In this document: positions 1,719-5,730 of the stretch, piece after piece
How the letters are laid out: each line of letters begins with the position of its first letter
How positions within the stretch are numbered: the stretch's first letter is position 1
The notes under the pieces: model-generated
What the model was told of the DNA's origin: nothing
Database searches by the model: none
Seen by the model: only the letters and a program-made list of their open reading frames with translations
NCBI GenBank assembly: GCA_028282025.1
Contig: JANQIT010000017.1
Span: 1 to 60,314 of the forward strand
Direction of reading: 5' to 3'
Source of the DNA: Hwanghaeella sp.
GTDB lineage: Bacteria; Pseudomonadota; Alphaproteobacteria; UBA8366; Aestuariispiraceae
Length of the DNA: 60,314 nt
Position numbers and translations under genes: made by a program

Positions 1719-2711
1719 TCAGCCGCCTGTCACGCTCATATGGCGGACGGTGCTTTTCGCGCCGCGCCTGCGGTCGATGATAAAATCGTGGCCCTTCGGC
1801 TTGCGTGAGATCGCTTCGTGTATTGCCGCGATCAACTGATCGTCGTCGTCGCTGGCCCGCAACGGTTGCCGCAGGTCCGCCGCGTCTTCCTGGCCAAGGC
1901 ACATATACAGCGTGCCGGTGCAGGTCAGGCGCACCCGGTTGCAGCTTTCGCAGAAATTGTGGGTCATCGGCGTGATGAAGCCGATCTTTTGGCCGGTCTC
2001 TTCCACCGTGCTGAAGCGTGCGGGGCCGCCGGTCGTATAGTCGCTTTCGTGCAGCGTCCAGCGCTTGGCGAGTTCCGCACGCACCATCGAGAGCGGCCAG
2101 TATTGATCCAGACGGGCCTCGTCGCCGATTTCGCCCATCGGCATGACCTCGATAAAGGTCAGGTCGAAGCCTTCCCGGCCGCACCAGGCCACCATGTCGT
2201 GCAGTTCGGTATCGTTCACGCCTTTCAGCGCCACCGCATTGATCTTTACCTGCAGGCCCGCCGACTTCGCGTCCTCCAGGCCCGCCATCACCTTGTCCAG
2301 CTTGCCCCAACGGGTGATCGAATGGAATTTGTCCGGGTCCAGCGTATCCAGCGACACATTCAGCCGCCGCACGCCCGCTTTATACAGATCGTGCGCGTAC
2401 TTGCTAAGCTGACTGCCATTCGTGGTCAGCGTCAGCTCCTTCAGCTTGCCGCTATCCAGGTGCCGGCCAAGCCGCTCTATCAGCCACATGATGTTCCGGC
2501 GCACCAGCGGTTCGCCGCCGGTAAGCCGAAGCTTGCTGACACCCTGTTCGACGAAGGCGCTGCAAAGCCGGTCCATCTCCTCCAGCGAGAGGACGTCGGA
2601 CTTGGGCAGGAAGGTCATGTCCTCCGCCATGCAATAGACGCAGCGGAAGTCGCAACGGTCCGTGACCGAGATGCGCAGGTACGAGATATGGCGGCCGAAT
2701 GGATCAATCAT
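1719..2711 (-). CDS. moaA: GTP 3',8-cyclase MoaA
   Basis: Radical-SAM enzyme that, with MoaC, converts GTP to cyclic pyranopterin monophosphate, the first step of molybdenum-cofactor synthesis. The N-terminal SAM [4Fe-4S] motif is CDFRCVYC, followed by [11 protein letters not shown]; the C-terminal second cluster motif [11 protein letters not shown]-13-C is complete and the protein ends in the conserved GG tail. Length is 330 residues, normal for the family. I chose the ATG at 2711 ([13 protein letters not shown]) because GAGAAAG lies nine bases before it; an ATG at 2720 is in frame but sits against that site. The gene is divergent from fdhD over a 181-base gap. Confidence 0.96.
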
Positions 2712-2807
2712 GCTATGCATCTTTCTCGCCGGGCGGTGATTTTCAAGCCCCCGTCGGACAGAAAGAGATATGTGACTAAAGAAAAATGGAAAAGTAGGGA
2801 CATTCCG

Positions 2808-2831
2808 CCGCCCGGTTGCCGCTTCGGGCGG
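2808..2831. repeat. Inverted repeat in the moaA-fdhD divergent promoter region
   Basis: A perfect 7-bp inverted repeat, CCGCCCG at 2808-2814 and CGGGCGG at 2825-2831, separated by ten bases. It lies between the two divergent starts, so it could be an operator or a 5' leader hairpin; no poly-T follows on either strand, which argues against a terminator. I do not recognise a molybdenum-cofactor riboswitch fold here. Confidence 0.35.
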
Positions 2832-2892
2832 CCCGTTCCATATTAGCCGACGTGCAAAAACCCAGAACACAGCCACACATTTTAGGGTGATC

Positions 2893-3801
2893 ATGGCATC
2901 CTCCGACTCAGTACAAACGCCGGACACAGCCCTTCGGATTGTGCCCGATCCAAATGACCCGCGCCTGACACAGGCCGTGGCCGGTATCGATCACGAGGGC
3001 AAGCCGGTGGAGACCCGCGTGGTGATGGAACGGCCGTTGACGCTGTTCCTCAACGGGCAGGAGATCGTCACCAACATGACGATCGGCGATCACCCCGACT
3101 ATCTGGCGGTGGGGTATCTGTTGAACCAGAATATGCTGCGCCCGGACGATGAAATTACCGCCATCGATTACGACGACGACCTGGAAACCGTCGTCGTGCG
3201 CACCAAGCGGCAGACCGATTTCGAGGAGAAGCTGAAGAAAAAGGTCCGCACGTCAGGCTGTGCGCAAGGCACCGTTTTCGGCGATCTTATGGAAAAGGTG
3301 GAAGAAATCGCCTTGCCGCAGGATGCGGAATTGCGGACCTCTTGGCTATATGCCCTGACCAAGGCGATCAACACGATGCCCAGCCTGTATCTCTCCGCCG
3401 GTGCGATTCACGGCTGCGTGCTTTGCCGCGGCGATGAGCCGCTGCTGTATATGGAAGATGTCGGGCGTCATAACGCGGTCGACAAGATCGCAGGCTACAT
3501 GTTCCTGAACGGGATCAGTCCCGGGGATAAGATGTTCTATACGACCGGGCGGCTGACATCCGAGATGGTGATCAAGACGGTGCAGATGGGGATTCCGATC
3601 CTGATTTCGCGGTCCGGGTTCACTGCTTGGGGAGTCGAACTGGCGCGCGAAACCGGCCTGACGTTGATCGGCCGCGCCAAGGGCCGCCGGTTTATTGCGC
3701 TGTCGGGGGCGGAACGCATCGTGTTCGACGCCAACCCGTCCGATATCGGCGACGAGGACAAGCGCCACGGCAGAAAGGCCGCCCGCAGTGACGCGGCCTG
3801 A
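2893..3801 (+). CDS. fdhD: FdhD-type sulfurtransferase for formate dehydrogenase
   Basis: FdhD passes sulfur from a cysteine desulfurase to the molybdenum cofactor so that formate dehydrogenase becomes active. The 302-residue protein shows the family core [25 protein letters not shown] and [15 protein letters not shown]. The catalytic loop, which usually carries a CxxC pair, reads [11 protein letters not shown] with only Cys123; another pair, Cys175 and Cys178 (HGCVLCRG), precedes the EDVGRHN motif. The start at 2893 (ATG) has AGGG five bases upstream; a GTG two codons earlier is possible. Its 3' end overlaps the next gene by 14 bases. No formate dehydrogenase structural gene is in the window. 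Confidence 0.9.
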
Positions 3802-4753
3802 CCTGTCTCCTGCGCCCGGGGCGAAAGCCGGGGACGACGCGGAGCGACAGGTGGGGGCGGACCGTGATGTCTCCGCGCAGGAACTGCTTACCCAGTTGGA
3901 TGACGCCATAGAGGAAATGCGGGCCTTCATGCAGGGATGGCACCGTTCCATCGTCTGCGGTAAACCGCCCGGCAAGATCCTGACCGCCGAAAATGCGCAC
4001 GCCGCCGCCCGTTTCGGGGCGTGGTCGGCGGCGCATGCGGAAGCAGGGTTGGTCCGGCAACCCGCTTTCCAGGATCTGATCGACAGTCACCGGAAGGTTT
4101 ATGAGCAGGCGCGGCGGTTGGCCCTCGGCGTGACGGCGGGACAGGCCATCCGGACCGTCGAATACGACGCCCTGATCGGTCAGCTCAGCCGGTTTTACGA
4201 TCAGTCCCGGCGGCTGCGCGATGCATTCCGCAAACTGGTTTCAGAGATTGATCCCCTGACCGGCCTGCATAACCGCCAGATTATGACCGAAGAGTTGGAT
4301 GTCGAATATTCCCGCGGCAGACGGACCAATGGCCCCCTGTGCATCGCGCTGGCCGACATCGACTTTTTCAAGAAGGTCAACGATACCCACGGCCATGCGG
4401 CCGGCGATATGGTGCTGGCCAGCGTCGCGGGCCGGTTCCTCGCGCATCTGCGGCCCTATGACACGATTTACCGCTACGGGGGCGAGGAATTCCTGCTTTG
4501 CCTTCCGAATGCCAATACCGGTACCGCCAATTCGGTGTTGGAACGGCTGCGGCGCGCCCTGGAAAGCGAGCCCATAGGCCTGCCGGAAGGAAGGGACTTG
4601 CCGGTTACCGCCTCCTTCGGGTTGGTTCGCGTGAATTACGACCATAGCCTGAAGGCATCGATTGAGCGCGCCGATCAGGCGCTCTATGCCGCGAAGCAGG
4701 CTGGTAGAAACCGAGTGGTGACATGGAGCGAAAGCTTGGAGTCCGACCAATGA
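3788..4753 (+). CDS. GGDEF diguanylate cyclase with CZB-like N-terminus (DgcZ-like)
   Basis: Predicted to make cyclic di-GMP. The GTG start at 3788 lies inside the end of fdhD, giving 321 residues. Residues about 33-150 form a helical domain resembling the chemoreceptor zinc-binding (CZB) domain of E. coli DgcZ, leading directly into DPLTGLHNR, the start of a GGDEF domain. The active site is GGEEF (231-235) and the product-inhibition site RPYD (222-225) is intact, so activity with feedback is expected. Compared with DgcZ as I remember it, ligand positions equivalent to the first His and the Cys are Met44 and Ala here, so zinc sensing may be lost or changed. No membrane segment. Coupled to mobA by an ATGA overlap. 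Confidence 0.88.
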   Translation: MTRPDLSPAPGAKAGDDAERQVGADRDVSAQELLTQLDDAIEEMRAFMQGWHRSIVCGKPPGKILTAENAHAAARFGAWSAAHAEAGLVRQPAFQDLIDSHRKVYEQARRLALGVTAGQAIRTVEYDALIGQLSRFYDQSRRLRDAFRKLVSEIDPLTGLHNRQIMTEELDVEYSRGRRTNGPLCIALADIDFFKKVNDTHGHAAGDMVLASVAGRFLAHLRPYDTIYRYGGEEFLLCLPNANTGTANSVLERLRRALESEPIGLPEGRDLPVTASFGLVRVNYDHSLKASIERADQALYAAKQAGRNRVVTWSESLESDQ

Positions 4754-5379
4754 CATTCCCTCTCGACAAAGCGGGCGTCACCGCGGTGCTGTTGGCCGGC
4801 GGGCAATCCCGGCGCATGGGGGGCGGCGACAAATGCCTGCTGCCGCTCTCCGGCAGGTCCGTTCTGCAACGGGTGATCGACCGGGTCGGCCCGCAGGTGG
4901 TGGGGCTAGCCCTGAACGCCAACGGCGATCCGGGCAGATTCGAAGAATATGGCTTGCCGGTTATTCCGGACGCGGTCGGCGACTTCGCGGGGCCGCTGGC
5001 GGGCGTGCTGACGGGGATGGAATGGGCCGCCGCCCATACTGTTTCGACCCATATCCTGACTGTGCCGACCGATGCGCCCTTTCTGCCCAAGGATCTGGCG
5101 GCGCGCCTCATGGAGCCGGTGGCGGCCGGCCGCGCGGACATGACATGCGCGGAATCGGACGGACGTGCGCATCCGGTGGTCGGCCTTTGGCCGGTAGCGC
5201 TACGGGACGCGCTCCGCAGCGCCATGCTGGAGGAAGATATCCGCAAGGTCGACCGATGGACGGCGCGCTATCGGTTGGAGCAAGTGGCGTTCGGAACCGA
5301 GCCCCTGGACCCGTTTTTCAATATGAACCGCCCGGACGACGCCGCCCGGGCGGAAGAACTGGCCGGGCTGGATCCTTAG
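4750..5379 (+). CDS. mobA: Molybdenum cofactor guanylyltransferase MobA
   Basis: Joins GMP from GTP to molybdopterin to give the guanine dinucleotide cofactor used by formate dehydrogenase and other DMSO-reductase family enzymes. The N-terminal nucleotide-binding motif LLAGGQSRRMGGGDKCLLPL is classic MobA, followed by VPTDAPFLP (metal/GTP site) and the NMNRPDD segment near the C-terminus. Length is 209 residues from the ATG at 4750, which overlaps the stop of the diguanylate cyclase (ATGA); an in-frame ATG at 4723 would add nine residues. fdhD, the cyclase and mobA form one translationally coupled unit. Confidence 0.95.
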   Translation: MTFPLDKAGVTAVLLAGGQSRRMGGGDKCLLPLSGRSVLQRVIDRVGPQVVGLALNANGDPGRFEEYGLPVIPDAVGDFAGPLAGVLTGMEWAAAHTVSTHILTVPTDAPFLPKDLAARLMEPVAAGRADMTCAESDGRAHPVVGLWPVALRDALRSAMLEEDIRKVDRWTARYRLEQVAFGTEPLDPFFNMNRPDDAARAEELAGLDP

Positions 5380-5473
5380 CGGCCGCCCTGGGCGCGCGCT
5401 CCGTCCCCGAGGGCGGCAGCGGGGTTGCCGGAAAAGACGCCGCCCTATTGGCCCATTCAGTCAGCAGGATACG

Positions 5474-5497
5474 AAAAACCCCGCCAAAGGGCGGGGT
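5474..5497 (-). terminator. Intrinsic terminator of the small gene at 5551-5730
   Basis: On the minus strand CCCCGCC pairs with GGCGGGG (plus-strand arms 5479-5485 and 5490-5496) around a four-base loop, followed by five T residues. It lies about 55 bases past the stop of the 59-residue gene, and also separates it from the convergent mobA. Confidence 0.8.
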
Positions 5498-5550
5498 GCT
5501 CCGTTCTGCCGGTGAGGCGCGTGAGGGCGCGCGCCAGCCGCCGATCCTTC

Positions 5551-5730
5551 TTAGGACGTCGCGGGAGTGCCCTGGCTGGCGCTAATACCGCCGAACAGTT
5601 TCGCGACCCATGCAGACAGCGTCCGGAGGTTGCCGTGAAAAACTTTGCTGCGCTCGTAGCGCGCGCGGCCGACGATGGCGTCGATCTGCTTGGCGGACAG
5701 GTTCACGGTGGGCTTCGCAATGGTGGTCAT
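5551..5730 (-). CDS. Small protein of unknown function, 59 residues
   Basis: I do not recognise this family. The start at 5730 is well supported: AGGAGT stands eight bases before an ATG giving MTTIAKPTVNLSAKQIDAIV. The protein is basic in its middle (GRARYERSKVFHGNLRTL) and ends in an amphipathic or weakly hydrophobic stretch (SAWVAKLFGGI). There is no signal peptide and no cysteine. A strong intrinsic terminator follows, so it appears to be a free-standing transcription unit. The arginine-rich helical make-up would fit RNA or membrane-surface binding, but that is only a guess. Confidence 0.6.
   Translation of the reverse strand: MTTIAKPTVNLSAKQIDAIVGRARYERSKVFHGNLRTLSAWVAKLFGGISASQGTPATS

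Follow-up and report, generated by a model that had tools for sequence, protein, structure and literature searches.

Why should a gene for a diguanylate cyclase lie between fdhD and mobA? The products of these two genes load molybdenum cofactor (Moco) into enzymes such as formate dehydrogenase (FDH), and c-di-GMP is a bacterial signal molecule. To our knowledge most diguanylate cyclases have no known input, and one of the rare hints at what a given cyclase signals is membership of an operon that persists across families. The case studied here is found in a window of 60,314 nucleotides, the whole stretch of DNA analyzed, from Hwanghaeella sp., a genus which NCBI taxonomy places in Rhodospirillales, Aestuariispiraceae, and to which genome G001 of our comparisons also belongs. 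Table 1 lists the genes and domains at the locus.

Table 1. Features of the fdhD-cyclase-mobA locus, in window positions.
Feature	Position	Strand	Start; stop codon	Evidence
moaA (GTP 3',8-cyclase)	1719..2711	-		TIGR02666, 372 bits (cut-off 284)
fdhD (formate dehydrogenase accessory sulfurtransferase)	2893..3801	+	ATG 2893; 3799-3801	PF02634, 256 bits; TIGR00129, 150 bits (cut-off 141)
DgcZ-type CZB-GGDEF diguanylate cyclase, 321 aa	3788..4753	+	GTG 3788; 4751-4753	NF007380, 281.6 bits (cut-off 256); PF00990, 142.6 bits
CZB-like N-terminal helical domain of cyclase	3866..4231 (boundaries approximate)	+		Residue table; Pfam CZB sub-threshold
GGDEF catalytic domain of cyclase	4244..4714	+		PF00990 match; RPYD aa 221-224, GGEEF aa 230-234
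mobA (Mo cofactor guanylyltransferase)	4750..5379	+	ATG 4750; 5377-5379	TIGR02665, 206 bits (cut-off 152)

Family models and gene neighbours identify a Moco maturation operon in which FdhD and MobA are encoded together; moaA is divergent from it, and a divergent moaA adjoins the locus in relatives too. The window genome has FdhD matches at this locus only, and 14 other GGDEF matches. A first, sequence-only reading had described overlaps of the cyclase gene, over 14 bases with fdhD and over an ATGA with mobA. The coordinates bear out the second overlap, of 4 bases, and also the first, given the GTG start at 3788. An in-frame GTG at 3851 would instead leave a 49-base gap after fdhD; the upstream start was accepted because an ATG occupies the identical -14 position in the cyclase gene of Hwanghaeella grinnelliae. 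Start/stop overlaps between cyclase and mobA recur in relatives. Separate promoters inside the cyclase gene had been named as a finding that would speak against a common expression unit; a scan of positions 2600-5700, which covered the sigma-70 consensus alone, found no promoter-like site there. No Moco riboswitch or other Rfam RNA matched in the window at the gathering score. The three genes are presumably co-transcribed. Beyond moaA lie two small open reading frames, one at 711-1244 encoding a secreted-looking protein with YYYP, which had no Pfam match over the residues tested, and one at 1296-1691 encoding a protein that starts FANDAFYLAL; look-alikes adjoin moaA in relatives L116, L120, L121 and L125.

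The cyclase has the sequence and fold expected of an active enzyme. The GGEEF and RPYD sites described earlier as intact are so in the residue table, as are the surrounding RYGGEEF and the DID metal-site residues, and the protein combines GG[DE]EF, the DxD residue and the overall GGDEF fold. An I-site RxxD is found five residues before GGDEF as R221-P-Y-D224, where E. coli DgcZ has RDYE. The AF2 model has a mean pLDDT of 89.5 and a pTM of 0.66, which makes the domain arrangement less certain. It matches GGDEF domains in the PDB with Z of 22-27, and the DgcZ crystal structure 4h54_A over the whole length of the protein (268 residues aligned, Z 24.9, rmsd 5.3). Compared with the H. grinnelliae ortholog the cyclase has dN 0.254 and dS 1.29, the latter near saturation, and by such sequence comparison it is under purifying selection; the GGDEF half is more constrained (pN 0.144) than the CZB half (pN 0.305). 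Catalytic and I-site motifs are intact in all 26 in-locus active rows of the residue table. Most likely, the window cyclase would act as a dimer that converts GTP to c-di-GMP under feedback through its I-site.

The window protein shares domain order, fold, catalytic motif and length with E. coli DgcZ (YdeH), but three of the four zinc-binding residues are gone from its N-terminal domain. Numbered on the E. coli DgcZ sequence, with ligand positions that agree with the published ones, H22 corresponds to M43, C52 to A73 and H83 to Y104, and only H79 is kept, as H100; the Pfam CZB score is sub-threshold (13.6 bits vs 29.4). Since the 3His/1Cys zinc site is absent although the whole-length equivalog score is over its cut-off, we regard the protein as a DgcZ-derived variant and not as a zinc-type DgcZ. 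E. coli DgcZ is inhibited by zinc and responds to HOCl, and both properties depend on the 3His/1Cys site (PMC8262984, PMC8846402). With one ligand of four left, the known sensing of zinc or hypochlorite probably does not apply here. One could still propose a conventional zinc- or hypochlorite-gated DgcZ-like cyclase that is in this operon by happenstance, as the whole-length equivalog match and the match to the DgcZ structure might suggest. We consider this very improbable, given that all four ligands are present in 2/26 in-locus active cyclases vs 25/31 out-of-locus homologs (Fisher p 2e-8, with rows that are not independent). Activity may rather be set by expression of the operon, or through binding of some ligand or partner to the CZB-derived bundle. 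A WHRxxxC motif was considered as a new ligand set replacing zinc and rejected, because its Cys is common to most out-of-locus homologs and so is not specific to the locus.

The sequence-only reading had left it to relatives to show whether the arrangement is kept. Related marine alphaproteobacteria do keep it: most members of the order have it, as does one family beyond the order. Among 43 genomes of the order sampled, 24 have an intact in-locus cyclase, with mobA directly downstream in 23 of these (in the remaining one the contig ends first) and fdhD upstream in 22; six more carry a tandem array of GGDEF paralogs at the locus (family f4). The fdhD-cyclase-mobA trio is also present in family f63 outside the order (L149, L155, and L036). 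In the collection of named genomes, loci L030 to L044 except L041 have fdhD and/or mobA beside the cyclase, and loci from L045 down are without fdhD. Chance adjacency of the cyclase with fdhD or mobA was rejected, as the synteny is conserved in relatives. Direct fdhD-mobA neighbours without a cyclase occur in other alphaproteobacteria outside the order (G043, G049, G050, G054), and such neighbours are also found inside it (G006, G037, G041); this distribution suggests an ancestral fdhD-mobA pair into which the cyclase was inserted later. In a tree of 63 rows a single change accounts for the in-locus state, but because support for the separating branch is weak (21), a single origin is compatible with the tree rather than proven. 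A DgcZ-type cyclase may thus have been inserted once into an fdhD-mobA operon, in an ancestor of the order and the related family, and kept since as the translationally coupled middle gene. A different, 188-aa gene occupies the place between fdhD and mobA in genome G058 (L118 2893-3459, - strand), indicating that the gap accepts other inserts.

The main rival to a functional link is that the operon is simply a convenient expression site: the cyclase would be kept by inertia, its c-di-GMP would join the general pool, and it would have no role in Moco or formate metabolism. Housekeeping-like expression would suit a generic cyclase, related DgcZ-type cyclases adjoin other genes such as lipB, and G006 has lost the cyclase cleanly, with fdhD-mobA intact at a 5-base gap and FDH kept, so that the cyclase is dispensable in that genome. 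Inertia, however, accounts less readily for a cyclase kept in four families as 24 intact forms and 6 arrays, or for f4 copies which remain around fdhD and mobA despite lost catalysis. In G008 and G010, moreover, the locus is without fdhD, the only FdhD being a divergent copy elsewhere in the genome, and the cyclase still adjoins mobA. We consider this explanation unlikely, although it has the strongest claim of the alternatives. Because cyclase-mobA outlasts the loss of fdhD in these two genomes, the cyclase is tied more tightly to mobA than to fdhD, which points to Moco rather than formate as its closer partner.

Presence of the cyclase also follows that of formate dehydrogenase. When FDH was scored as a match over cut-off to TIGR01591 (formate dehydrogenase alpha), it was found in 29/30 genomes with a locus cyclase or array vs 4/13 without (29/1/4/9), a co-occurrence (Fisher p 1e-5, ancestry ignored) for which phylogeny and gaps in the assemblies are confounding factors. 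Three of the four FDH-bearing genomes without cyclase have assemblies from which the complete locus is missing. The window genome encodes its FDH on another contig, as a protein of 928 aa that begins with a 2Fe-2S domain; in two f4 genomes, mobA and an FDH-alpha gene are no more than a few kilobases apart.

Our best reading, to which we assign a probability of about one half, is that c-di-GMP synthesis is co-expressed with Moco delivery. The cell would produce the cyclase at the same times as FdhD and MobA, which would link its c-di-GMP pool to the state of Moco and of molybdoenzyme maturation. The proposal that c-di-GMP output is tied to Moco supply or formate metabolism, raised when a single genome was at hand, has gained in its genomic part: the conserved arrangement makes such a link more likely than could be known at the time, and presence of the cyclase correlates with FDH. 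The physiological link between the cyclase and Moco or formate is still one that we infer.

Family f4 took a different course. Between fdhD and mobA, loci L110-L115 encode one CZB-GGDEF protein together with short GGDEF-like proteins of ~190 aa, two or three per locus; in L115 a pair of the short proteins is encoded between moaA and fdhD. The array copies examined have lost GGEEF (YGR[STA][EG][FY]) and the DxD residues. The catalytic site is not conserved among 14 aligned short paralogs, all of which (14/14) keep the R and D of the I-site RxxD and an Arg that aligns with PleD R390. In a GGDEF-domain tree, all f4 short and CZB copies form one clade (support 96) which nests in the in-locus group and is separate from the further GGDEF domains that were taken from G016 and from the window genome; on this phylogenetic evidence the f4 copies descend by duplication from the inserted cyclase. 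All four zinc ligands are present in 5/5 f4 CZB-GGDEF proteins, so that decay went in opposite directions: the window lineage kept catalysis and lost zinc, and f4 kept the zinc ligands and lost catalysis. Production of c-di-GMP is therefore not a universally kept property of the locus. The inserted gene was duplicated in tandem, losing catalysis and keeping I-site residues, and the locus may here sense c-di-GMP made elsewhere instead of producing it. One short-clade member (L194 4612-5211, - strand, genome G016) is found away from the Moco locus, next to a pckA-like gene, and its R390-equivalent Arg is gone.

These retained residues lead us to infer that f4 paralogs bind c-di-GMP, and they invite two bolder proposals. 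The first is that the protein acts locally, binding GTP or c-di-GMP and acting on MobA or FdhD, with catalysis secondary or absent in vivo. The f4 paralogs, which lost the catalytic motifs but not their place at the locus or their I-site R, D and R, would fit this, as would the tightest neighbour being mobA, which itself encodes a GTP-using enzyme. We find it doubtful, as the in-locus active cyclases strictly keep their catalytic residues, GGDEF is the more constrained domain, and retention of RxxD may be partly structural. The second, equally tentative, is that c-di-GMP is wired directly into Moco delivery, through a cyclase native to the fdhD-mobA operon in most lineages and, in f4, through three or four I-site receptors descended from it that would sense c-di-GMP and control Moco guanylation or FdhD-dependent sulfuration; if true, c-di-GMP would act directly on cofactor maturation. 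The f4 copies resemble a class discussed in the literature, c-di-GMP receptors that use the I-site of a degenerate GGDEF domain, in having lost the catalytic motif and kept I-site residues, but form a tandem array in a Moco operon and are candidate binders known from sequence.

Among known systems, E. coli DgcZ differs from the window cyclase, which lies in a Moco operon, in genomic setting as well as in its zinc site. Coupling of pterin chemistry to a c-di-GMP enzyme is also seen in PruA-PruR-DcpA of Agrobacterium tumefaciens, where the pterin-binding protein PruR is related to Moco enzymes and encoded beside the c-di-GMP enzyme (PMC13259868). DcpA, however, is a membrane dual GGDEF-EAL protein that senses pterin-PruR in the periplasm (PMC13259868), whereas the window locus encodes a soluble CZB-GGDEF protein beside enzymes of Moco synthesis and delivery, and no PruR. 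In open-licence PMC papers we found no work joining CZB, diguanylate cyclase and fdhD; the one paper that names diguanylate cyclase, fdhD and mobA together concerns an unrelated ycdT neighbourhood, and the titles and abstracts that concern fdhD and GGDEF do not describe the arrangement. The placement of the cyclase, the conserved loss of its zinc site and the dead f4 arrays appear to be new; the parts themselves are of known kinds. If confirmed, the locus would place a c-di-GMP cyclase in a defined metabolic setting, that of Moco and formate dehydrogenase, and would offer at one site a natural series that runs from an active enzyme to receptor-like paralogs without catalysis. Cultured strains (of H. 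grinnelliae, Aestuariispira and Pacificispira) would then allow a direct test of input and output. The nearest out-of-locus DgcZ-type cyclases (L045 2317-4063, L048 3239-4906) lie directly after a lipB-like gene, another cofactor gene, whose identity in L045 is backed by a Pfam match.
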